Origin: a virus
DNA: 35,814 nt
Reading direction: 5' to 3' (one strand)
Virus record (IMG/VR): IMGVR_UViG_3300010885_009406
Span: 1-35,814 of that record
Shown here in pieces: positions 9,822-35,485 of this stretch; the stretch's first letter is position 1, and each line of letters starts with the position of its first letter. The position numbers and the translations under genes are program-made. The notes under the pieces are model-generated. The model did not search any database. It worked only from the letters and a program-made list of their open reading frames with translations, and was not told the origin of the DNA.

Positions 9822-10961
9822 TTATTTCTCTTTGGTCTTTACACCGAACTGATTATCGGTGGGCTGTAGAAAGCGCACGACCACATTCAGGCATGCGCTG
9901 AGTCCGCCGCTGATGACAACCCTGAAATCTCCAGAGGTCATGTCCAGCAGCGGAGACCCGGTTGCAAGCATCATGGCAATGCAGGTGGTAAGGAACACAC
10001 GGGCCGCTTCGGTTGCGGCCTCGTCAATGCCGGTGTTGTCTTTAATAGACTTAAGAACTGAAATCACACGATTCATTCCGCTTTGTCCTTTCGTTAATTC
10101 AACCGCGTTGCCGATAGCCTCTGCGGCCTCACCGGCCTTCGCGCCCCAGTCTACCCGCTTGAGAGCGTCAACTGACGCGCTCAACGCTGGGTCAATCTGA
10201 GCCTCTTTCTTGGCGGGAACCGGTGCTGGCGTGCTCACAACCGCGCTCTGCGTGGCGGAAACAGGGGCTGTAGGGGCTGCTACGACAGGCGCAACGGGGG
10301 CTACGGCCACAGGAGCCTGAACTGCCACCTGCCCGCCTGGGTGCGTGACGATTAGCAGCGCCTTGTAATCAGCCTTCAACTTGCCGGCCTTCACCTTGCT
10401 GTTAGCGATCTGGCGCAATTGAGATTCCGTGACAGGCACACCGTAGGCTTCGGCCGGGTCGCGCTCATCTCTCGTGGGACAGGTCCAATAAATGATTCCG
10501 GTGTCGCGATCCATTCCGCTACTGGTCATGTGGCCGTAAGTTCGCGTTGGCTGCTTCTGCTTTACCCACCACCACCTCTTCCACTTGTCATGCCATTTGC
10601 TGATGTGAATGTCTGGGAACCCCTGGGGCTGCTGGACCCACACAAGTAAGGCCGCGCCGGATTTCATTGCCGTCATTGCGTCGTCCCATGACTTTGCGTA
10701 GCGAGCCTTGCCACCGAGTTTGGCAATAACTTTGACGGCCTCGGGGAGACTGCCGCCGTTATCTGACACGCCTTGCTTGTCTACTCGTTTGGTCACGGCC
10801 TTTTGAGCCGCAACGCCGTCAGCGGCGCTGTAGTTTACGGTGTAAAGCGATGCGAAGGACACGGCTGCCGCGCATGAGGCCCAGGTGCAGTCGTCTAGGA
10901 TGCCCTGCTTAATGGCCTCCTGGTCTGAGTACAACTGGCTTTTCGTTCTGTACAAAGGCAT
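9822..10961 (-). CDS. Cysteine peptidase-like lysin fused to a holin-like membrane domain
   Basis: A 379-residue protein with three parts. Residues about 1-205 look like a papain-fold/C39-type cysteine peptidase: DDCTWASCAA near 23-31 (candidate nucleophile Cys25), a GSLPEAVKVIAKLGG segment, LLVWVQQP, and TYGHMTSSGMD near 141-151 (candidate His144). Residues about 210-255 are an Ala/Pro/Val-rich linker. Residues about 300-379 have two hydrophobic spans (about 322-338 and 346-365) separated by a short acidic turn (LLDMTSGDFR), ending in FLQPTDNQFGVKTKEK; this matches the layout of small phage holins. It probably acts in lysis on the cell wall. The fusion is unusual; a sequencing frameshift is not needed because the frame is continuous. 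No signal peptide is seen. Confidence 0.65.
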   Translation of the reverse strand: MPLYRTKSQLYSDQEAIKQGILDDCTWASCAAAVSFASLYTVNYSAADGVAAQKAVTKRVDKQGVSDNGGSLPEAVKVIAKLGGKARYAKSWDDAMTAMKSGAALLVWVQQPQGFPDIHISKWHDKWKRWWWVKQKQPTRTYGHMTSSGMDRDTGIIYWTCPTRDERDPAEAYGVPVTESQLRQIANSKVKAGKLKADYKALLIVTHPGGQVAVQAPVAVAPVAPVVAAPTAPVSATQSAVVSTPAPVPAKKEAQIDPALSASVDALKRVDWGAKAGEAAEAIGNAVELTKGQSGMNRVISVLKSIKDNTGIDEAATEAARVFLTTCIAMMLATGSPLLDMTSGDFRVVISGGLSACLNVVVRFLQPTDNQFGVKTKEK

Positions 10962-13462: not shown

Positions 13463-13650
13463 TAGTTCCTCCCCCACCGTAGTGGGCCTGTAATAAGCCA
13501 GAGGCCTAGCAGAACCAGAATAGCACCGCCGATGCTGTCCTTTGTGCTTCCGTCCGGGGTCACGGCAAAGGCCACAATCATGCCAAGCCAGGTCCAGGAT
13601 GAGGCGGCCGTATCAAGAATTGCGTCTACGAGTTTTCGCTTCATTACCAT
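13462..13650 (-). CDS. Two-span membrane protein, holin candidate (62 aa)
   Basis: A 62-residue protein starting at ATG 13650 (ATG 13644 is also possible). It has a basic start (MVMKRK), a first hydrophobic span (about 15-28, [14 protein letters not shown]), a polar turn (TPDGSTKDS), a second span (about 39-56, [15 protein letters not shown]) and a basic end (PLRWGRN). This size and topology suit a class II holin. It overlaps the secreted protein gene by 38 bases. Since the peptidase gene carries its own holin-like segment, which one triggers lysis is open. Confidence 0.65.
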
Positions 13651-14713
13651 TACTCTTTCCGCCTCCCCCTGATGGGGTTGAACTGCTGCCCGATGTTTGG
13701 GCTGCTGCTGCTGCCGCCGTTGCCGCTGCGGCCTGGGCCACTTGCGTAATAACGATTGCAGGAACAATTGTACGCGCTGCTTCCTCTTTCTGTTCTGGGG
13801 TCAAGTCATTGCCCAAGTTTGCAAGCGCCTCAATGGCTTCGCCTACGGCTGCGGCCGGATTGGGCAACTCAATGTCAAAGAAAGGTGGTGGTGGTTCGGT
13901 TGGCGTTGGCGGAGGCTCCGTCGGTGTTGGGGGCGGCTCGGTTGGACTCGGAGGTGGCTCGGTTGGCGAAGGTGGCGGCTCTGTCGGTGACGGTGGTGGC
14001 TCGGTTGGCGTTGGGGCCGGTGTCGGGGTTACGACTGGTGTAGGGCTAGGCTCAGGGCTAGGAGTAGCAGAAGGGCTAGGTTCAGCCGTAGCAGTTGGCG
14101 TAGGGTCAGGGGATGCCGGTGTCGGCTCTGGCGTGACCGTCGGCTCTGGCGTTGGCTCTGGTGTCGGAGGGGTAGGTTCATAGGAAGGCTCCTCTGATGG
14201 TGTTGGGGTTGGCTCCGGGGTTGGCAACTCCGATGGGATCGGAGAAGGGCTTGCCACCGGAGGGTTAGGGTCAAGAATGAGCGGAAGGTTGGCAATAAGG
14301 TCGTAGCGGCCACCTTCGGGGAACGGAGCATCCGGGTGAAGGCAACTGCCGTCATAGCAAATGAACCTTCCCGCGCGCAAGCGGTACACGCCCGGCTGCA
14401 AGGTAATGCCGATGTAGGAGTTGTAAGACTGGCCGTTCTTTCGTGGGTCGTCGTCGTTGGCCGTCATCACAGCGCCCTGGTTGTCGTACAGCCAGAGCAC
14501 GGAATCGGTAAATGGTGGACTCGCGCACCAGAACCCTTCGGTGTTCTCGCACAGGTCGGTCTCGGCCTCAAAGAGCGTCTCTTCGGTGACCACCACAAAA
14601 AAATCCATGGTGCGGTCAACGGTGACCAGGGATGTGGCGGACTCAGCCTTAACAGAGACTACCGACAGCATGAGGATGGCTGCCGAAGCAAGCGAGAAGA
14701 GCGGCCGGCGCAT
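13613..14713 (-). CDS. Secreted protein with PPC-like domain and proline-threonine stalk
   Basis: A 366-residue protein, ATG 14713 overlapping the upstream TAA. Residues 1-23 form a signal peptide ([23 protein letters not shown]). Residues about 30-140 resemble the bacterial pre-peptidase C-terminal fold: [37 protein letters not shown] and [10 protein letters not shown]; four cysteines could pair. Residues about 140-285 are a PT/PEP-rich stalk of repeated TEPPPSP units. The end is an Ala-rich hydrophobic helix (about 310-340) and a basic tail. It is predicted to be exported. The role is unknown: anti-superinfection, adhesion or a decorated virion protein are possible. Confidence 0.65.
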
Positions 14714-14898
14714 TACTTGCCCTGGCCTTGTAGCCACGCCAACAGCGCGCCTAATCCCCCCACTCCAAGAAGCCCACCAAGACCCTTAAGAACGGCCAAG
14801 CCGCCCCGCATTTCGTCAATCTGGCTTTGTAGTTTGTCAATCTTGGCGGACTGAGCGTCTAACCTGCTAATAATCTGTCGTGCTTGTGATTCGGTCAT
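14713..14898 (-). CDS. Small coiled-coil membrane protein
   Basis: A 61-residue protein in ATGA overlap with the S74 fibre gene. Residues 1-35 are an amphipathic coiled coil ([21 protein letters not shown]), and residues 36-57 are a Gly/Leu membrane segment ([20 protein letters not shown]). The arrangement matches small phage membrane proteins often annotated as holin or haemolysin XhlA-like proteins. It may support lysis with the two-span protein at 13462-13650. Confidence 0.65.
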
Positions 14899-24125: not shown

Positions 24126-25571
24126 TTATGACTTGGCTGTGCTGCCAAGAATCTCTTTTAGTTTGTCCGGGTCTGCTGTATAAAGTTCCCTTTCTCCGCC
24201 AAGGCTGTCATGCCTTGTGACAACCGGGCCAAGGCCCAGGGACTCGTACCATGGCCGTGCTTTCTCTGATGGATCAAGGACTGCAAAGGTCTTGTTTTCG
24301 TCTAGGGCCAACTGCATTGCCTCGCGCATGAGGGCAGTACCCGTTCCTGGCACTTCGTGACTCGTTCCAAGAAACTGGACCGTCAACTGTGGCCCGCCTT
24401 CCGGAGCGTAGTACGACAACGCGCCAACAATCTTTCCGGCGCTGTCCTTGGCCGTAATAACTGCGCTGTTAGAGGAGTATTCCGATTGTGGCTGATACGC
24501 AAGGTCCATCATCCTGTATCCCTCAATGACTGCGCGGAGTTCATTTGCCTCATCGCTTCCGTCTTTAGCATCTGCCCATGCGTCAATAGCCTTCTGCTTT
24601 AGTCGTTCAACCTTTGCTCGCTCTGATCGCGAATCTTTGGGGGTTGCAATTGTCTTTGACTCCGTAGTACCACCGGCCGCCTTAAACTTTCCATCGTACT
24701 TGTTTAGACGAGCGCCTCCCGTGGCCCAACTGCCATGATCGGCCTGGTCGTGGTCCGGACCGGCCTCGTGCTTCAGGGACTTGACTGAACTGCCAAGAAT
24801 CTCTTTCAAGGCATCCGGATTAACTCGGTACAGGGGTTTAGGCTCGTGGTAGGTAGTCGCCTCCGACATTTGCAACGGCCCAAGACCGAGGCTTTCGTAC
24901 CACGGCCGAGCATCCGCAACTGGCTCCAGGACTTGAAACGGAATTCCTTTCTCTAAGGCAATAGACATGGCCTCGCGCATGAGGGCAGTACCCGTTCCTG
25001 GCACTTCGTGAGTGCTACCGAGCAATTGAACGGTGAGTTGATCTTCTTCCGGAGGCATGTAGTAGGCAAGCGCGCCAACAATTTGCCCCTTGCTGTCCCG
25101 AGCCACAATCACCTCGTTAAATGGGGTGCTTAAGATGGCATCAGCAGTCAACTTATTTCCAAGGGCTAATCGGTTGGCCTCGTTGTACGCTTCTTCTAGT
25201 TGCTTGGCTTCCTTTTGGTATTGAGGGCTGTCAACATCGTATTTACTTGTGTCCCAATGATTTCGGTCGGCATCTTCGGCCTTTTCTAATGCGTCTGCTG
25301 ACGCAATCGCCTTGTCGGAAAGTGTCTGCCATTGCAAGCCGTAGTCTTTTTCAGGATCGTCAGTTGCCTTTACTGGCTTGTCAATAGAGCCGCCAGCCGC
25401 CCTAAACCTTTCAGCGTTCTTGGCTAAGACCCCGCCGCCGGTTGCCCAGTTTCCGTGGTCTGCCTGGTCATGATCCGGGCCGGCTTCATGCTTTACGGCC
25501 TTGGCCGGCTTGCCCTTAAGGTCGCGCAGAATCTTGTCGCGGAGTTTCTTGGGCAAAGCCTCGTCGTACAT
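24126..25571 (-). CDS. Tandem double-GNAT protein with HDQ motifs
   Basis: A 481-residue protein built of two similar halves. Each half has KHEAGPDHDQADHG-(N/S)-WATGG (residues 27-46 and 267-286), a helical linker and a GNAT-type acetyltransferase-like domain: V-I-A-x-D-S-x-G-x-I-VGAL-(A/S)-YY, LTVQ-(L/F)-LG, HEVPGTGTALMREAM (acetyl-CoA loop, about 188-202 and 405-419), and ARPWYESLGLGP. Each half ends with LKEILGS. In DNA, 42 bases at 24319-24360 and 24970-25011 are identical, showing a duplication under constraint or recent conversion. Its ATG overlaps the 612-residue gene's stop. It belongs to the head region and is probably a virion or cargo protein; acetylation of host targets is inference. 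Confidence 0.75.
   Translation of the reverse strand: MYDEALPKKLRDKILRDLKGKPAKAVKHEAGPDHDQADHGNWATGGGVLAKNAERFRAAGGSIDKPVKATDDPEKDYGLQWQTLSDKAIASADALEKAEDADRNHWDTSKYDVDSPQYQKEAKQLEEAYNEANRLALGNKLTADAILSTPFNEVIVARDSKGQIVGALAYYMPPEEDQLTVQLLGSTHEVPGTGTALMREAMSIALEKGIPFQVLEPVADARPWYESLGLGPLQMSEATTYHEPKPLYRVNPDALKEILGSSVKSLKHEAGPDHDQADHGSWATGGARLNKYDGKFKAAGGTTESKTIATPKDSRSERAKVERLKQKAIDAWADAKDGSDEANELRAVIEGYRMMDLAYQPQSEYSSNSAVITAKDSAGKIVGALSYYAPEGGPQLTVQFLGTSHEVPGTGTALMREAMQLALDENKTFAVLDPSEKARPWYESLGLGPVVTRHDSLGGERELYTADPDKLKEILGSTAKS
24319..24360. repeat. 42-bp perfect direct repeat, copy 1 (GNAT motif A)
   Basis: These 42 bases are identical to 24970-25011. They encode the acetyl-CoA-binding loop HEVPGTGTALMREA in the second half of the tandem GNAT protein. 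The copies are 651 bp apart. Neighbouring sequence between the halves is clearly more divergent. Confidence 0.9.
24970..25011. repeat. 42-bp perfect direct repeat, copy 2 (GNAT motif A)
   Basis: Matching copy of 24319-24360, encoding the same acetyl-CoA loop in the first half of the tandem GNAT protein. Perfect identity in 42 bases despite diverged flanks suggests gene conversion or recent exchange between the halves. Confidence 0.9.
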
Positions 25572-27409
25572 TATTTGCCTCCTGCTGCTTCATACGACTT
25601 CCACCACTCCTGGACGGTTTCCGGCTCCATGTAGCCAATCCAGTCTCCCTGTTTGTATTTCATCTCAAACCCTAACTCTCGGTAAAAACTGACGGCCTCA
25701 TCGTATGGCTGATTCAGCCAAACTCCCCGTCCACTTTCTGCCGCCGCGCCCAAGACTTGCGTTACAAGCCTGGTTCCAACTCCCGGCTCTAGGCCGTTAG
25801 TACCAATGTTGGTCAACTCTACCCATTTATCTTCATGCCCTGTAAGGTACGGGTTGTTTCCGACATTCTCTGCTGTGAAATTTCTGTACACCAGCGTGCC
25901 GACCGGGGTAGTACCGTCCACACCCGTGGCCACAAAAAACTGAAAGTCTTTATTCCGGCCAATTTCTCCCTCGTTAGCAGAATGGAGGGTATTCCTCATC
26001 AAGTCTGATCCGTCGCTAAACTGCTTCAGAAATTTCTGCTGCTCTGTAGGCTCAACTCGTGGTTGAGCGTATGCGCTTGGCCATTTCCCCATCTCTTCGT
26101 CAATGGCTGAGGTGATCTTGTCGGAAGCAGATTTGATTTCTGCAAACGAACTTGTGTTAGACAAATCAAGTTGTTGAATTCCGGACTTTCCACCGCGAGA
26201 CTCAGCGGCCCTTGCAACTAACTTTGCCGCAAACTCAGCAGCCGGAAGTTTCTTACCGCCCGTAATGCCCGTGGCCCAACTGCCGTGATCTCCCTGGTCG
26301 TGCTCGCCGTCCAAATGCTTGAGGGACTTGTTGTCAAACGGTGACTTGCGACCAGAGTCAACTCCTACGGCTTCTGCCGTAGAGACATCGGCAATTATTG
26401 CAGCAGGATTTAGAATTACGATTTCCCGACCAAGGTCAATAGCGTCATAGCCCTGGGAAGCCCAGTATGCGTTTTTAAGATCGGAAATAGTTCCGTTAAA
26501 TTCCCCCCACTCTTGCTTACTCCAGTCATCCGGCATGTCGGGTACTTGGTCCCACGCTAATTCACCACGAAGAATCTTTGCCTCCGGGCTAAACTCCATT
26601 TCAATAACCCGGCCGTTGTCTCCTCTGTAACTTACGGCCTCTTCACGCTCAGTTGTTGCGTAGAATCCAGCGCCCCAGGTGTATGGCTCTAGCCGTCCGT
26701 CATCCCCCATGGGGTAGCCGCCCATGATTGGCGCTTCTCCGGAAAGGAATGAGCGTGCGGCCTCATCTGTTGTAACGCCCCGGTAGATTCTGTCGCTACC
26801 CGTAAGTTTGGCCAACTGGGGCTTCATGCTAACTCCACGCGCTTCTAACACTTTAGTCAGCAACTCGCCGCCGTCTTTTGTTCCTGTGGCTAGGCTTAGT
26901 ACCTCAGAGAATGTTTGTGGCGCACTAGATACTCCGGCCCCATCTCGGTTGCCGTGGTCGGACTGATCGTGGTCACCGTGTTTAATGGACTTAGCCGGCT
27001 TGGCCCAGGGAACGCGGACCGAGACAAGGCCGCGATCTACCTGCTGCCTATCTCTTCCCAATCCTTGCTCAACAAGTTTAGGTGTCACTTGCATGTGTTT
27101 GTCTTGATAGCCCAGTTCCCGAAACACATCTTTGGCCAACTCAAGGTTGGAAACATGCACATCTATAGTCAAGTGCGCGTTTGCTCCGTATGAGTTGCTT
27201 GGGCCGTTTACCCAGGACTCTACTGGGCCGGGGTACTTACCTTCTGGGTTGGCCAACTTTGCTTGTTCGGTCAGGCGCTTGTAGGAGTCGGTCTTCCAAA
27301 CTTCGCTGTGTTTTGCAATAGACGGCAAACCATCGGCCCAGTTGCCGTGTTCCGACTGGTCATGGTCTGCGTGCTTGCGCGCGCGCGTAACGGCAAACAC
27401 GCGGGGCAT
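25571..27409 (-). CDS. Multi-domain protein: ADP-ribosyltransferase-like and GNAT-like modules with HDQ motifs
   Basis: A 612-residue protein with three HDQ motifs (residues about 12-27, 143-157 and 364-381) that set off three modules. Module 1 (30-135) is a small alpha/beta domain (AHLTIDVHVSNLELAKDVFRELGY) of unknown type. Module 2 (165-345) looks like an ADP-ribosyltransferase: DRIYRGVTT (Arg210), YTWGAGFYATTEREEAVSYRG, VIEMEFSPEAKIL and GYDAIDLGREIVILNPAAI (Glu329). Module 3 (410-612) looks like a GNAT acetyltransferase: FFVATGVDG-TPVGTLVY, ELTNIGTNGLEPGVGTRLVTQVLG and EAVSFYRELGFE. ART-like domains fused to phage head proteins are known from other phages. This protein may be carried in the capsid and delivered as an effector; enzymatic activity is unproven. 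Confidence 0.7.
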   Translation of the reverse strand: MPRVFAVTRARKHADHDQSEHGNWADGLPSIAKHSEVWKTDSYKRLTEQAKLANPEGKYPGPVESWVNGPSNSYGANAHLTIDVHVSNLELAKDVFRELGYQDKHMQVTPKLVEQGLGRDRQQVDRGLVSVRVPWAKPAKSIKHGDHDQSDHGNRDGAGVSSAPQTFSEVLSLATGTKDGGELLTKVLEARGVSMKPQLAKLTGSDRIYRGVTTDEAARSFLSGEAPIMGGYPMGDDGRLEPYTWGAGFYATTEREEAVSYRGDNGRVIEMEFSPEAKILRGELAWDQVPDMPDDWSKQEWGEFNGTISDLKNAYWASQGYDAIDLGREIVILNPAAIIADVSTAEAVGVDSGRKSPFDNKSLKHLDGEHDQGDHGSWATGITGGKKLPAAEFAAKLVARAAESRGGKSGIQQLDLSNTSSFAEIKSASDKITSAIDEEMGKWPSAYAQPRVEPTEQQKFLKQFSDGSDLMRNTLHSANEGEIGRNKDFQFFVATGVDGTTPVGTLVYRNFTAENVGNNPYLTGHEDKWVELTNIGTNGLEPGVGTRLVTQVLGAAAESGRGVWLNQPYDEAVSFYRELGFEMKYKQGDWIGYMEPETVQEWWKSYEAAGGK

Positions 27410-29830: not shown

Positions 29831-32137
29831 TTATTCTAGGCCGAGAACGCCCTCATCGGTGTCATTGGCCTCTTTGTAATTCTTGTCGGCAAGCCGGACC
29901 AACTTATCGTAGGCCGTGGCAACTTCATCTTCTGGAGCGCCGCTTAACTTTGCCGCAAGATAATCCTTTAACTCCTGGGAATCCATTGCGTCGTAGGTTT
30001 CATCTTCGGAAAGCGTCACAAACGCATGCTCTGGGCCAGGGACCCCCTCAATGTCGTTGTTGTAGGTGTTCTCAGTCATAAAGTAGTTTGTGCCGCCCTG
30101 CGTACCCTCGGAAGTGTTGAACTCTAGAATGCCCATCTCTTCGCCGTTTACGGTAATACCAAACCCGCGCACATCATTAAGGTCCTCAAAGGAACTGTCT
30201 AGGTCCTTAACTTCTTCGGCAAGTGTGTCAATGTCGTTCTGGGTCTCTTCGCTTACGCCGCTATTGGTAGCGCCGGACGCGGCCTCGGCCTCGTCTTTGG
30301 CTCCGGCCCCGGAGCCGCCAGGAGCGTGATCGCTCTGGTCATGGTCGCCATGCTTGGTGGAACGCTTGACCCGGAATGACTTCTTTGGCTCGTTATACGC
30401 ATCAACTGTGTGAGAAGCAATTTCAGACCAGTTAACACCGTCTAAGCCCTGATTAAACAGGTCAATAAGGAACGGGTTGCTGGCCCCGCCGTTGCTTTCG
30501 TCTTTTGTCATTTCAAGTTCGTCTTGAATGTTGCTTGCCAACATGCGGCCCAACTCGTAGCGCGCCTTTTCGGAGTCGCCGCCGGCAGCATCAAACACCT
30601 CTTTGGCAATGTCGCGAATGCTATCGGAGCCGCCCATAACCCCAGAGTTGTCAATGTGCAACGACGCAAGCCAGGTTGCCCGGTTGGTCCACCCGTTGTG
30701 TTCCTCTTCGTCTCCCCTTCGGAAACTATCCGAACCCTTCCAGGTTTCCTCTCCGCCAACTTCCGCAATGTAGTTGTCGGCAATTGCATCCCAGTCCATG
30801 CGCTCAACCACGCCGCTAATAACTCCGTCGGCCATGTCAGAATTTAAGCCGCTAGCGTCAAAGTCCTCTTCAACCGAAGAGCGAATGGTTAGTCCAAGAT
30901 CGCGCGCTGCTCCGGCCGCATCTCCGTTATTGTCGTCAAGGGCTTCTTTTACAAGTTCGTCCTCAAACATGCCCTCGCCAACCATCAGATTCATGTTCCA
31001 GGTTGCATGATTAGTCCAACCGTTGTAGCCCTTCTCGTCGCCGGTCTTCTCGCGCTCGGATGTCTCCTTGTCGCCGGCCCCGCCGCCGGTCGCCCACGCG
31101 CCATGCTCTGACTGATCGTGGTCTCCGTGCTTAACCGTGCGCTTGACCTTCAACATTTTCTTGCCTCCTCGTGTCTTGGTTAGGTCTCGGTAGATTGTCT
31201 TCTCTTTGGGGGCAGAATTAGAATTGCCAGTCAGGTCTCGGTAGATTGTCGCCTCTTTGGGGGCGGAATTAGACCCGCCGGTAAGGTCGCGAACAACTCG
31301 GTTGTCGTATTCGTCGGCGGCAAACTTAGAAATTTCAATGTTCAATCTCATGAATTCGTCGGCAATGTAGGTTTGCCCTAGCCTGTTTGCTTCCGCGCGA
31401 CCCTGCCCGGCTGCGTTCATGGCCTCTTCCCAGTTACCTTTTTCTAACGCCTTGTCTACGGCCACATGATGAAGCAAATGAACATAGCGATCTTCCTTTG
31501 GAATAGAAGTAATTGCGTCCATAACTGACGCTCGCTGGTTCTCGGTTGCGCTTAGTGCTGCTGCTACCCGACCACCCTTGTCGGACCCACCGCCGGTTGC
31601 CCAGGAACCGTGCTCGCTCTGATCATGGTCGCCATGCTTGGTGGCAAAGAGGGACTTCACATGGGCTGCGGCCGACTTGTTGGCGCGCACGATGTAAGCA
31701 TTTGGGTTGGCTGGGTTTGGGGTCAGGCTCAACTCAACGAGCGCCCACTTAAGAATCTCTCCGGTCTTGCCTGAGACCTTGACCAGGTGGCCCATAGTCC
31801 CGGACGAGAAGCCAAGAGCGTCCTGGCTAACCAATTCCTTAATCTCGTTGATGTATTCCGAGCGCGCGTCCAACTGTGCGCGTACCCAAACACCGCCGTC
31901 GTCAATCTTCTTGACACCCCAGCGGCCAATCACGGCCGTGTCTACGGCTGAATCCAGGCCGTGCTGAAACAGAAGTGGTCGCTGTCCGTCCGGAATAAGG
32001 TCAAGTGCAAAGTCTGTGTTCTTGCTAAAGTATTGTCCGTGAAGGTCCTTGCCCTTGATTGGGCCGCCAAACGGCACGCCGTAGCCCTCAATAACCAAGC
32101 CGCCGTCTGCCGTTGCTGCAATCTTCAGATGCTTCAC
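29831..32137 (-). CDS. Prohead protease (S78) fused to HDQ motifs and NGWTN/ATW domains
   Basis: A 768-residue protein, four times the usual length of a prohead protease. Residues 1-160 are the S78 protease: IEGYGVPFG, LLFQHGLD (His59), LGFSSGTMG (Ser111/112) and ALVELSLTPNPANP (Glu135). HDQ motif 1 follows at residues 167-184 and motif 2 at 336-353. Between these is a helical region and a duplicated RDLTG-x-SNSAPKE-x-TIY unit (283-320). After motif 2 come two related domains beginning YNGWTNHATW (371) and HNGWTNRATW (480), a pattern I know from DUF7249-like proteins. Motif 3 (595-604) precedes an acidic C-terminal domain (610-768). GTG start overlaps the portal stop. The protease is expected to mature the capsid; the extra part is candidate cargo. 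Confidence 0.85.
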   Translation of the reverse strand: MKHLKIAATADGGLVIEGYGVPFGGPIKGKDLHGQYFSKNTDFALDLIPDGQRPLLFQHGLDSAVDTAVIGRWGVKKIDDGGVWVRAQLDARSEYINEIKELVSQDALGFSSGTMGHLVKVSGKTGEILKWALVELSLTPNPANPNAYIVRANKSAAAHVKSLFATKHGDHDQSEHGSWATGGGSDKGGRVAAALSATENQRASVMDAITSIPKEDRYVHLLHHVAVDKALEKGNWEEAMNAAGQGRAEANRLGQTYIADEFMRLNIEISKFAADEYDNRVVRDLTGGSNSAPKEATIYRDLTGNSNSAPKEKTIYRDLTKTRGGKKMLKVKRTVKHGDHDQSEHGAWATGGGAGDKETSEREKTGDEKGYNGWTNHATWNMNLMVGEGMFEDELVKEALDDNNGDAAGAARDLGLTIRSSVEEDFDASGLNSDMADGVISGVVERMDWDAIADNYIAEVGGEETWKGSDSFRRGDEEEHNGWTNRATWLASLHIDNSGVMGGSDSIRDIAKEVFDAAGGDSEKARYELGRMLASNIQDELEMTKDESNGGASNPFLIDLFNQGLDGVNWSEIASHTVDAYNEPKKSFRVKRSTKHGDHDQSDHAPGGSGAGAKDEAEAASGATNSGVSEETQNDIDTLAEEVKDLDSSFEDLNDVRGFGITVNGEEMGILEFNTSEGTQGGTNYFMTENTYNNDIEGVPGPEHAFVTLSEDETYDAMDSQELKDYLAAKLSGAPEDEVATAYDKLVRLADKNYKEANDTDEGVLGLE

Positions 32138-33708
32138 TCGTTTGCTCCCTTCAATCCGGGGTACTCGTCTTCTTCTACGCCATTGGCAATCTGCTTACTA
32201 CTGTAGCGCCTCTTGATTCCTAGTTCAATAGTCCGGCGCTCATGGTCGTTCACCGCGAATCCTACCATTGCAGCGGCATCTAGTTTACCGCCGGCAACAA
32301 AGGCCTTAACTTCTGGCCGGCCATAGAGGTGTGACTCCTTCTCAAACCACGACATGATTGGCGGAGCGTCTACTACATGATCCTCTTCCACCGCTGTCTG
32401 GTTTGCAGGAAGGTCACCAACCGTGATCGGCCGCTTGCCAACCAGGCCCTCTTGCGGCTGGCCATTGAGGAGCGGGATGTCGCCCCATTCGGTTGGAGCG
32501 CCAAGGCCAAAGTGCGCGCGTACCTCGTTTGGCGTGACGACGCGCCGGTCCATCAACTGCGTCCATAGCATTAGTTCTTCTTGCGGTGTTGGCCGGAGGG
32601 CTTCAATGCTAGTCATGTCAAACTGCACGGTCAATCGGCCGGTCGTATCAAACTCTGTCGTCAACCAGGAGTCCATGATGTCGGCCGCCCAGCCGAGTTC
32701 TGTCTTCATTCTGCGCCAGAACACCTGCTCTGCGTCGCGTACTGATCGGTACACGCCAGAGTGCTCGTCGTCACCAACAAGTTGTAGCGGCACGCCCATG
32801 GCGGATGCAATGGCCATGCGGCTAATCTTGCGCGCGTTCAGGTACTGCGCGTCCTGTTCCGGGATACCAAGTTGCTGCCACTCAAGGCCGCCTGGGAGCA
32901 CCGCGCTCTTGCCGGCATTCTTTGGCCCGGAGATTGCGGCCAACACTTTCTTGATTGCTGATTGGTCCTGCACCGTAAGGTCGCTGTCCTTCGGCGCAAC
33001 CCATGCGCCAACCGGTACGCCCATGTTGCGAAGCAAAGCGTTTGTATGCTCGGAGGCCATGACGCTGACCTCTACCTCGCGTCGGATTGCAGAGAGAGGG
33101 GAGAGGCCGCGCGTCGGGTCAACAAAGTTTCCTGGAAGCCGGAAGGCCACAATGTCTTTAGCCGGAATGATTTCGGTTTGCGCGTTGCGCGCTTTTGATC
33201 CAAACGGGTTGTATTCGTAGGCTTCAATCCAGGTCTGGCCCATCTTTGGCGTGAGGTCTACCGGCCGGAGCAGGTACAACTCTTGTGGTGGCCCGCCAAG
33301 GCGGCCGCGAACTTTGCGAACATAGGCTTCGCCGTACACCGAAAGGCTTGCAACAAGGCTGCCCCGGAAATCAGATGCAGACATGCTGTATGGATTTACG
33401 GTGTCAAGAAGTTTCTGGTACTCAGCGGCCTCTGGATCGTTGGCAAGGTCTGCCGGAATAAGGTTGTGATCTTGGCGCACATAGACCCGGAGCGGAACCG
33501 AGCCGGCGCTCATGGCCTTTAACTTGATACAAGCGTTGAGGAACGGCTCATCTGCGGCCGCGCGCGCCCAATCCCTTGAGGAGTTGTAGTCGCCCGACCC
33601 TTGTTCGGCCATGCCAAAGAATGCCATCCACGATGCGAGCGAGTCTTTCTTTCCTGGCTGAATGTAATTCGCCGGGTTAGCAAAGTCTGGCATCTTACGA
33701 TCAGCCAT
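32134..33708 (-). CDS. Portal protein (HK97 family)
   Basis: A 524-residue protein between large terminase and prohead protease. Family features include WARAAADEPFLNACIKLKAMSAGSVPLRVYV near the N terminus, SDFRGSLVASLSVYGEAYVRKVR, ELYLLRPVDLTPK, IPAKDIVAFRLPGNFVDPTRGLSPLSA, and RKISRMAIASAMGVPLQLVGDDEHSGVYRSVRDAEQVFWRRMK with the long C-terminal helical part. The last ~65 residues (FVAGGKLDAAAMVGFAVNDHERRTIELGIKRRY...) are longer than in HK97 and include a basic helix. It forms the dodecameric ring for DNA entry. ATG 33708 overlaps the stop of the small zinc ORF (TGATG). Confidence 0.92.
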   Translation of the reverse strand: MADRKMPDFANPANYIQPGKKDSLASWMAFFGMAEQGSGDYNSSRDWARAAADEPFLNACIKLKAMSAGSVPLRVYVRQDHNLIPADLANDPEAAEYQKLLDTVNPYSMSASDFRGSLVASLSVYGEAYVRKVRGRLGGPPQELYLLRPVDLTPKMGQTWIEAYEYNPFGSKARNAQTEIIPAKDIVAFRLPGNFVDPTRGLSPLSAIRREVEVSVMASEHTNALLRNMGVPVGAWVAPKDSDLTVQDQSAIKKVLAAISGPKNAGKSAVLPGGLEWQQLGIPEQDAQYLNARKISRMAIASAMGVPLQLVGDDEHSGVYRSVRDAEQVFWRRMKTELGWAADIMDSWLTTEFDTTGRLTVQFDMTSIEALRPTPQEELMLWTQLMDRRVVTPNEVRAHFGLGAPTEWGDIPLLNGQPQEGLVGKRPITVGDLPANQTAVEEDHVVDAPPIMSWFEKESHLYGRPEVKAFVAGGKLDAAAMVGFAVNDHERRTIELGIKRRYSSKQIANGVEEDEYPGLKGANE

Positions 33709-33938
33709 CAGGTCTCCTCGTTATCTACAGGAAGGCCGCACTTCCAACACCATTCATCTTCGTCTGCTGGGCTAATGTATGGTACTGCACATCGGCATTG
33801 GTTCGCTTTGATTACGCGATCATACCTGTGAACGCGCGCTTCGGAGCCGGCTGCATGGCCTGGCTCACCGCCATCACCATCGCGATAGCCGCGTCCACTT
33901 TCGCTGTCGTGTTTCCTCTCGGCTTGCGAATTCGCCAA
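33708..33938 (-). CDS. Small zinc-ribbon ORF between terminase and portal
   Basis: A 76-residue frame that overlaps the end of terL by 127 bases. The only usable start is a TTG at 33938, with AGAGGAG about 8 bases upstream. Residues after the terL stop carry QCRCAVPY and EWCWKCGLP, four cysteines able to bind zinc. The first half is a low-complexity shadow of terL and may not be conserved. Its TGA overlaps the portal ATG, which suggests a coupling function. An alternative is that only a short C-terminal peptide is translated by re-initiation after terL. Confidence 0.5.
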   Translation of the reverse strand: MANSQAERKHDSESGRGYRDGDGGEPGHAAGSEARVHRYDRVIKANQCRCAVPYISPADEDEWCWKCGLPVDNEET

Positions 33939-35485
33939 CCGGCATCTCCTCTGGGTACTGCTACTGCGGCCATGACATGTCGCGTTAGCGCAACATTTAT
34001 CTTTGGATCGTACCGCAGCCGGCGGGTCACAATGGCCTGGAACAAGTCTGCCGTCATCGGAACCATCCGGCTATCCGTCTGATTTGTCTCCACCATGGCC
34101 AAACCCTCGCCCTCTAGCATCTGAGCGGACTCTCGGAATGACCAGGGGTCGTAGCAGAACGCCGGTCCGGGCCGTGTCCGGCCGTCAATCTTGACCATGG
34201 CTGCCGGGAATCGCTCGCGAAGGCTGACCAGATAGCGCCGGATTTCCTCAATGTCCACCTGCCAGGCCGCGCCCATGCTGCTGTCCTTCGGGTACGGATT
34301 GGCCCAGACACGCGACTCCACCACAATGTTGTCGCCCTGCTTCTGCGCAATGACCACGGCGGAAGCGTCCCGGGTAATACCCACATCTATCCCAACCGCT
34401 ACCGGCAATGCCGGGTCAAGCGTTACGGTCTCTTCGGCACACGCGGCCCACGAACCCATTGGGAGCCAGGACTCTTCACCGGCATGTACCCATTGGCCCA
34501 GGTGTAGCCGCCGGAATTCCGAAAGCCGGGTCGTCGGCTTGAATCGCTGTTGCCGGAGATACTGGTCGCTGATCCATGGGGCCGGGTTGCTCTTGCGCCA
34601 CACCTCCGGGCTGTCAGCATCGGCATCCTCCGGCGCTCCGTAGTGATAGAGCAGGAATCCGTTGTCCGGATCGCGGGCAATGCGCCGGTAGTACGGCCCG
34701 GATTGAAATTGCTGATCCGGCGCGGTCTCAATTACCCGGTTGTAAATCTGACCCAGGATTTGATCCGGGTCATAGCCCGGTGTGCTGATGGCAATGGTGA
34801 GCGGCTCGTCGCGCGCGCCGGAGCCAGAGGTCAGCGCCGTGTACAACTCGCCGTCCTGGTGCGCCCATAACTCGTCTACGATTACGCACGACGGGTTAGA
34901 GCCGTGCTGAAGCCGGCCGTCGGATGCCACGACCTTGATGAACCCGCCTCCCTGCACATCTATGTGGTACTGCTTCGGAATGAGCAGGGCCGATAGTTCT
35001 GGGTTGTTGGCAATGAACGCCCGAATCTGCCGGAAGATGACGGCGGCCTGGTCCTTGGATGCTGCGGCCACAATTGTCTGCGGCTCCTTGCCGGCATCGC
35101 GCAGGGTCTGGAAGATTGCCAGGGCTGCAGCCAGCGTTGACTTTCCGGATTTGCGGGGGAGCAAGAGCATGGCCTCGCTGTACCGGCGCTTGCCGGTGAC
35201 GGGATCGCGGCTCAACACATCGTTGATGAAGTCTCGCTGGAACGGCTCAAGCCGGAGCGGCTGTCCGGAGAATTGCCCGATGCTCTGCTTGATGAAGACC
35301 TTGCAGAATTCCTCAAAGATCGGACCGTCGGTTAGGAGGCGGGGATTTCCTCCGCTTGCCGGCTCATCAGGTCGCTGATCGTCATGGCCTTCTTGAGGCG
35401 CGGGGTCTTGTTGGCCTTGTACCGCGCCTGGGATGGCGTGGCTGACAGGCCCATTCGGCTGATTAAGTTCTGGTAGGTCTGACAT
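33812..35485 (-). CDS. terL: Terminase large subunit
   Basis: A 557-residue ATPase-nuclease motor. The ATPase domain has a Walker A-like LLLPRKSGKSTLAA (residues 107-120), Walker B with catalytic Glu VIVDELWAH (201-209), and TIAISTPGYD (coupling motif). The nuclease domain has VGIDVGITRD (Asp367), VKIDGRTRPGPAFCYDPW (Asp434), and KVDAAIAMVMA (Asp531). It follows terS with a 154-base overlap; the ATG at 35485 has GAGAGG upstream. The first ~45 residues, encoded in the overlap, are low-complexity (QQDPAPQEGHDDQRPDEP) and may vary. No later start codon is available before the conserved domain. Confidence 0.95.
   Translation of the reverse strand: MSDLPELNQPNGPVSHAIPGAVQGQQDPAPQEGHDDQRPDEPASGGNPRLLTDGPIFEEFCKVFIKQSIGQFSGQPLRLEPFQRDFINDVLSRDPVTGKRRYSEAMLLLPRKSGKSTLAAALAIFQTLRDAGKEPQTIVAAASKDQAAVIFRQIRAFIANNPELSALLIPKQYHIDVQGGGFIKVVASDGRLQHGSNPSCVIVDELWAHQDGELYTALTSGSGARDEPLTIAISTPGYDPDQILGQIYNRVIETAPDQQFQSGPYYRRIARDPDNGFLLYHYGAPEDADADSPEVWRKSNPAPWISDQYLRQQRFKPTTRLSEFRRLHLGQWVHAGEESWLPMGSWAACAEETVTLDPALPVAVGIDVGITRDASAVVIAQKQGDNIVVESRVWANPYPKDSSMGAAWQVDIEEIRRYLVSLRERFPAAMVKIDGRTRPGPAFCYDPWSFRESAQMLEGEGLAMVETNQTDSRMVPMTADLFQAIVTRRLRYDPKINVALTRHVMAAVAVPRGDAGWRIRKPRGNTTAKVDAAIAMVMAVSQAMQPAPKRAFTGMIA

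Follow-up and report, generated by a model that had tools for sequence, protein, structure and literature searches.

A repeated peptide box joins exchangeable modules, probably head cargo, to a prohead protease and marks neighbouring head genes in a viral contig

We have analyzed a viral contig of 35,814 nt (IMG/VR record IMGVR_UViG_3300010885_009406, positions 1 to 35,814; the window) in which an open reading frame (ORF) of 768 residues, lying between the genes for the portal and the major capsid protein, joins a prohead protease domain to some 600 further residues. A short peptide, which we call the HDQ box, stands at every module boundary of the box genes of the window and has the form KH-x(1-4)-HDQ-x2-HG-x-WA-x-GG (15-20 residues), with three copies in the protease gene and five in two adjacent cargo genes. 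We consider it probable that the C-terminal part of the protease and the genes at 24126-27409 represent modular head cargo, in which each domain is tagged by a box for loading into the prohead and probably for cutting by the protease.

Assignment of the first 160 residues to the S78 proteases is weak on the Pfam match taken alone (PF04586, residues 9-155, E=0.001, 19.6 bits with a cut-off of 21), and the TIGR01543 match is also below threshold (E=1.4e-4, 22 bits with a cut-off of 59). The window protein is matched by PHROG 3270, "head maturation protease", at 3.6e-8, the equivalent gene exceeds the S78 cut-off in six related records, and H59, S111/S112 and E135 are without change in the alignment of ten relatives. 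A sequence-only reading of this ORF had described a protease with these catalytic residues in order, fused to about 600 unusual residues containing a tandem repeat, two NGWTN domains and an acidic C terminus, and this description holds: the NGWTN pair corresponds to DUF7249 (PF23907), found in two stretches with E=8e-15 (56 bits, curated cut-off 27), and both the repeat and the acidic end are present (Table 1). What that reading overlooked is the box and the module organisation, which the protease gene has in common with its neighbors. The repeated unit RDLTG-x-SNSAPKE-x-TIY is probably a small and recent linker expansion, since the close relative L161 has a single copy. Among cultured phages the nearest protease is that of Salinibacter phages, which is 34% identical, has another N-terminal extension and carries no box; searches with box peptides among cultured phages, limited in part by BLAST filtering, produced no useful match.

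Within the protease protein three copies of KHGDHDQS[ED]H are located at the joints between the S78 domain, module 1, the NGWTN pair and the C-terminal module. The motif [FL][RK]VKR[ST] closes modules both ahead of an internal box and, in shorter relatives, ahead of the stop codon, which points to a repeating unit composed of box, module and short basic end. The comparison with relatives that the sequence-only reading had proposed showed that in ten of them the protease part is almost invariant while the extension is replaced wholesale, with NGWTN modules present in three of the ten. The same reading had raised the possibility of an attached scaffold that is degraded during maturation, and some HK97-type phages do use protease-linked or delta-domain scaffolds. 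In the present case, however, the C-terminal part is wholly different between phages with near-identical proteases, and box units also occur in genes beyond the capsid gene; furthermore, the Pfam match of the capsid protein starts at residue 141 of 444, so that the capsid has its own N-terminal region of about 140 residues outside the match, which could be a delta scaffold of HK97 type. We therefore regard a scaffold role of the extension as scarcely credible; the exchange of extensions between near-identical proteases indicates that it is more likely to be variable cargo. Structure prediction of the sections, also proposed earlier, succeeded in part: AlphaFold2 on the whole protein gave a mean pLDDT (predicted local distance difference test) of 39.7 and was confident for the C-terminal module only, where residues 630-762 form an alpha/beta domain with pLDDT mostly 60-89 from a shallow alignment. 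A fold search with these residues found no PDB match at E<=0.001.

The number of boxes exceeds what composition would give, with eight matches to HDQ..H in the window DNA and none in 100 dinucleotide shuffles, and no Pfam family covers the box in the window proteins scanned. When 2.9 million viral contigs were scanned for the pattern and searched for relatives of the protein, at least 491 unique box proteins with at least 787 boxes were obtained, for which the consensus is K-H-x(1-4)-H-D-Q-[SKA]-[STED]-H-G-[NS]-W-A-x-G; when 75 box proteins with mostly unrelated modules were aligned, the consensus hardly extended beyond KHGxHDQxxHGxWA. Complete box proteins number 391, and in 275 of these no more than 70 residues separate the start from the first box; the same is true for 158 of the 242 complete proteins with a single box. 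Multi-box proteins have one box per domain, spaced mostly by 130-280 residues, up to a maximum of eight in 1944 residues. The box is thus a mark both of the boundaries between modules and, in single cargo genes, of the N-terminal region. A bacterial or prophage origin of the box was considered and rejected, the search having returned only three genome-contig matches, none of them in box-bearing reading frames.

The domains behind the boxes are diverse. A Pfam tally of 75 representative box proteins found ADPrib_exo_Tox in 29, followed by GNATs, HAD phosphatases, SprT-like domains, zeta toxin/kinase, ParB and DUFs, and the PHROG names for box cargo include Alt-like RNA polymerase ADP-ribosyltransferases (ARTs). 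In the mapped records 41 of 44 ART matches fall within box genes, most of them 15-60 residues downstream of a box, and the remaining three are in genes with the variant boxes described below. The modules are ARTs, GNATs, kinases and peptidases without relation to one another, and the box is their common feature. Two modules have counterparts in cultured phages: gp205 of Rhodococcus phage E3, a "structural protein", has a box-protein module without a box, and gp60 of Pseudomonas phage H66, whose annotation states that mass spectrometry verified it as a virion protein, contains a module homologous to one in a box polyprotein of L169. In the window itself, the ART-like module of the 612-residue cargo protein is homologous to modules of other box proteins, and its GNAT module gave 20 Foldseek matches with E<=0.001 to the GNAT fold. 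Three loci, L165:6417-12251, L043:653-6388 and L166:10633-16275, encode polyproteins of 1880-1944 residues that contain eight boxes apiece, the first with six ART stretches; just ahead of that one, at L165:5660-6427, lies a separate gene for a SprT-like metallopeptidase with the box variant KHADHNQEDHG.

The conservation of the box is that of a peptide. The HDQ/H/G/W/A core is about 95-97% identical even where the downstream modules are at 20-30% identity; it should be noted that the conservation of HDQ..H is partly built in, because the proteins were found by searching for the box, and to that extent the figure counts against our interpretation. When boxes ahead of unrelated modules are compared, their similarity is higher within a phage (0.591) than between phages (0.409; permutation sd 0.009, P<=0.0005, 22 lineages). 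Each phage has its own box dialect, examples of which are KHGDHDQS[ED]HG, KHLAGQHDQS[ST]HG and EHLPGQHDQDDHGKW, with KHLAGQHDQSTHG as a dialect heterologous to the window phage. Dialects would be expected if one partner per phage reads all of its boxes. Homogenisation by recombination is the lesser alternative, because copies that are identical as peptides differ in their codons, and the window even mixes TCN and AGC serine codons. The box is kept by selection as a peptide, in a phage-specific dialect and independently of the domain that follows. As codons vary freely between copies, a DNA or RNA element is not favored.

Close relatives also swap or delete modules at the boxes. In L161 the counterpart of the 25571-27409 protein is without module 1 and has box 1 joined directly to module 2, and in L162 the same modules, at about 92-94% identity, are rearranged and split over two genes. 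Such swaps, the low predicted order at the boxes and the Gly-rich tail would all suit a passive flexible linker that doubles as a recombination joint between cargo genes. A passive linker would have no need for conservation of H-D-Q-H-G-W-A next to such divergent modules, it would leave unexplained both the dialects and the box ahead of the first domain in single-domain genes, and the codon differences oppose upkeep through DNA homology; we therefore judge this explanation to be rather improbable.

Variant boxes occupy the same positions. G005 (L169) is closely related to the window phage and has its genes in the same order; its cargo joints use KYSEDQERDDHGR[FW] and its protease gene retains KHGDHDQSEHGNW. 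The first of these belongs to the YSDQ form, KYSEDQxRDDHGRF (in general KYSxDQxRDxHGRF/W), and it stands ahead of a GNAT module 68% identical to the second GNAT of the window: the box is another one, but the place is the same, as is the KSLK ahead of it. Scans recovered 60 stretches of the KYSEDQxRDDHGRF form and 29 of a third, FDESKHPRDxxGKF (the HPR form). Both are N-terminal or occur once per domain, and both are found in phage L334. The HPR form lies ahead of PBECR1, PBECR3, LPD13 and ART domains, and InPase is found in a protein with the YSDQ form; these partners are the known repertoire of polyvalent proteins. The HPR form was grouped with the box because of its position, its partner domains and the shared D-x-x-G-[KR]-F, and its identity as the same element is less certain than that of the YSDQ form. 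One example comes from a cultured phage, Pseudomonas phage Orisa03, where a protein annotated as hypothetical (L299:2270-4381) has a portal joined to an ART-like domain by the HPR form FDENKHPRSDDGKF / FDENKHPRSDDGKFGSNG. The variants also bear on whether the box is a small ligand-binding element, for metal or DNA, through which cargo would be packed alongside the genome or helped to unfold for ejection. The conserved pattern of three His and one Asp would suit such a role, but KYSEDQxRDDHGRF retains only one His on cargo that is 68% identical, and FDESKHPRDxxGKF differs yet again, which makes a ligand-binding element very improbable. At L169:5208-12322 (G005), KYSEDQERDDHGRF/W is found at the cargo joints and a canonical HDQ box in the protease gene, and two genes have five ART matches.

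The genomic setting of the boxes is that of head genes. All three box genes of the window sit within the head gene cluster, and in its kin the terminase gene is followed by those for the portal, the box-bearing protease, the HK97-type capsid and the connector, and then by the box cargo genes. A second and unrelated head type consists of a Mu-type portal, MuF, box genes, an XkdF/S78_2 protease, a cement protein and capsid protein E. Pfam found no MuF domain in any box gene of the window. MuF neighbors box genes in other phages, or the box gene itself has head-morphogenesis homology. Among the 48 records of the HDQ class, S78_2 was found in 28 and S78 in six others (34 of 48 combined), and because many records are contig fragments a missing protease is uninformative. 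When eleven S78_2 records were compared by eye, the protease gene was inside the span of box genes in ten, and just outside it, at a contig end, in the eleventh. Record G024 (70.6 kb; L172 and L173) has a cassette of portal, box and S78_2 near each contig end, representing either a phage with two sets of head genes or an assembly that was joined.

We propose that a partner inside the growing prohead would recognise the box, the simplest candidate being the S78-type prohead protease or its associate, and that box-tagged proteins would be loaded ahead of DNA packaging, the cargo of the protease gene being placed in the prohead through its fusion to the enzyme. The protease would then probably cut at or beside the boxes and free single enzymes (ADP-ribosyltransferases, acetyltransferases, NGWTN and others), which may accompany the DNA on ejection and act inside the new host. 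The role of loading tag fits the N-terminal place of the box on separately encoded cargo and the dialects, and that of cutting site would fit one intact box per domain, boxes between protease or portal and cargo, and protease genes in the clusters.

That the box is a cutting site alone seems unlikely. Such a site would account for the intact box of each domain in polyproteins, for the protease genes inside box clusters and for the Orisa03 portal-ART protein, in which targeting is needless; moreover, Iyer et al. (2017; PMC5512222) argue that polyvalent proteins must be cut into their units, for which they propose a metallopeptidase built into the protein. Most single-domain cargo genes nevertheless keep an N-terminal box, where a cut separates nothing and would release nothing useful, so that cutting alone is insufficient. 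Loading alone is insufficient as well, because a box after a portal needs no targeting. Since each role by itself leaves cases unexplained, we prefer a tag for binding followed by cutting, on the pattern of T4.

Several results weigh against the bound-then-cut tag. A further 39 records, of which 34 have the YSDQ or HPR form of the box, were examined: an S78, S78_2 or DUF2213 protease was detectable in only 13, several below cut-off, and none of these was detected in the other 26, which also speaks against cutting alone. A general link of boxes to S78-type proteases is therefore not established, and a universal tie finds no support in the variant classes. A comparison of the boxes with the region where the capsid protein is probably cleaved found no sequence in common, and AlphaFold2 gave no confident box structure, both alignments being shallow. 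In some proteins of the HPR class the box is at residue 2-3, where a cut ahead of it would free nothing. Finally, proteomic data for a box phage were not found, and virion location, loading and cutting remain inference; the nearest support for a virion location is indirect, from the module in gp60 of H66 and from the head packaging proposed for effectors fused to MuF, portal and capsid-processing peptidase (PMC9503650).

A broader proposal, which we put forward tentatively and would call possible rather than probable, is that the HDQ box, KYSxDQxRDxHGRF/W and, if related, FDESKHPRDxxGKF constitute a single cargo code that is widespread among tailed phages. Such a mark would sort effector enzymes into the prohead and show where the head protease releases them; it would be used across unrelated capsids, portals and proteases, and would allow phages to assemble and trade sets of injected effectors as cassettes of tag and module.

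Polyvalent proteins are already known, and so are head proteins with fused effectors. MuF polymorphic toxins, in which an effector is fused to a head protein, are predicted to be packaged and injected (PMC3482391), and head packaging has likewise been proposed for effectors, Nudix among them, that are fused to MuF, portal or a capsid-processing serine peptidase (PMC9503650). These fusions differ from the present case, where a repeated box lies between head protein and cargo, there are several units per gene, and the same box is found on unfused genes. Polyvalent proteins as described by Iyer et al. (2017; PMC5512222) are like the window genes in that many unrelated effector domains are found per polypeptide among virion genes, and they have ART, GNAT and ParB domains in common with box proteins, as well as PBECR1, PBECR3, LPD13 and InPase with the variant classes. 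ORF 25571-27409, which combines GNAT and ART-like modules, shares this feature of disparate domains in one polypeptide, as do relatives with up to eight box units and six ART stretches. The box genes are unlike polyvalent proteins in that every domain has the same short tag, many tagged genes are separate, and no built-in metallopeptidase was seen in the window genes (no Pfam peptidase was found in the two cargo genes at 24126-27409, and the protease gene itself carries boxes). A term search of that paper found no such tag.

A further parallel is the capsid targeting sequence of T4, which according to work cited in PMC10052503 and PMC5512222 is a short N-terminal tag of head-internal proteins, the ART cargo Alt among them; it directs them to the prohead, whose protease cuts it. 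The box is likewise a short N-terminal sequence on unrelated proteins, with a putative head-internal location; it differs in showing no sequence resemblance to the T4 tag, in being repeated inside polyproteins, and in that its cutting is putative. A literature search, with most subscription journals outside its range, found no paper on the box sequence or on DUF7249, which is here one of several interchangeable cargo modules, and none on PLxRFG that bears on the tag. A shared per-domain tag is thus absent from the papers searched, and the tag may in itself represent an element of a new kind.

The positions of these features are collected in Table 1. Elsewhere in the window, ORF 13613-14737 (minus strand) has a signal-like start followed by a long Pro/Thr/Glu-rich repeat, and ORF 9822-10961 (minus strand), with the Cys-containing start ILDDCTWASCAAA, resembles a putative papain- or C39-like peptidase.

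Table 1. Head genes, boxes and modules of the window, ordered from the terminase gene downstream
Feature	Position	Strand	Sequence or support
Terminase large subunit	33812-35485	(-)	PF03354, PF20441
Portal protein	32134-33708	(-)	PF04860, E=2.7e-52
Protease-cargo ORF	29831-32137	(-)	768 aa, GTG start
S78 prohead protease domain, residues 1-160, H59, S111/S112, E135	31658-32137	(-)	Pfam PF04586, TIGR01543, PHROG 3270, invariant columns
HDQ box 1, residues 167-183	31589-31639	(-)	KHGDHDQSEHGSWATGG
RDLTG-x-SNSAPKE-x-TIY repeat, residues 283-319, linker of module 1	31181-31291	(-)	
Unit-end sequence KMLKVKRT, immediately N-terminal to box 2	31136-31159	(-)	Proteins of relatives end alike (FRVKRT-stop)
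HDQ box 2, residues 336-352	31082-31132	(-)	KHGDHDQSEHGAWATGG
First NGWTN (DUF7249) domain, about residues 371-470, end approximate	30728-31027	(-)	PF23907
Second NGWTN (DUF7249) domain, from residue 478, closing with KKSFRVKRS	30359-30706	(-)	PF23907, residues 478-547
HDQ box 3, residues 595-611, W-A half lost	30305-30355	(-)	KHGDHDQSDHAPGGSGA
Acidic C-terminal module, residues 612-768	29831-30304	(-)	AlphaFold2
HK97-type major capsid protein, 444 residues	28338-29672	(-)	PF05065, E=3.1e-36, residues 141-440
Cargo gene, 612 aa: box + module 1, box + ART-like module, box + GNAT module	25571-27409	(-)	
Box in 612-aa cargo gene, residues 12-25	27335-27376	(-)	KHADHDQSEHGNWA
Box in 612-aa cargo gene	26942-26983	(-)	KHGDHDQSDHGNRD
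Box in 612-aa cargo gene	26273-26320	(-)	KHLDGEHDQGDHGSWA
Cargo gene, 481 aa: two box + GNAT units	24126-25571	(-)	PF00583, E=5.8e-10; PF13508, 1.7e-6
Box in 481-aa cargo gene	25443-25493	(-)	KHEAGPDHDQADHGNWA
Box in 481-aa cargo gene	24723-24773	(-)	KHEAGPDHDQADHGSWA

How most phages choose the proteins that they carry in the head is an open question outside T4, P22-like and giant phages, and a sequence tag common to hundreds of effector domains offers a direct, testable handle on it. The tag would allow injected effectors to be recognised by the tag alone, including modules without any known domain, and it suggests a route for loading foreign proteins into phage heads. It also bears on the VIP2-like ADP-ribosyltransferases of freshwater phages, which have been suggested to be a toxin against eukaryotic grazers (PMC6802176). 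The ARTs of box phages are of the same general kind, and their box and head-gene setting would fit head-packaged effectors aimed at the bacterial host and not at grazers, so that an alternative reading of the freshwater-phage enzymes is that they may be head-packaged tools against the bacterial host.
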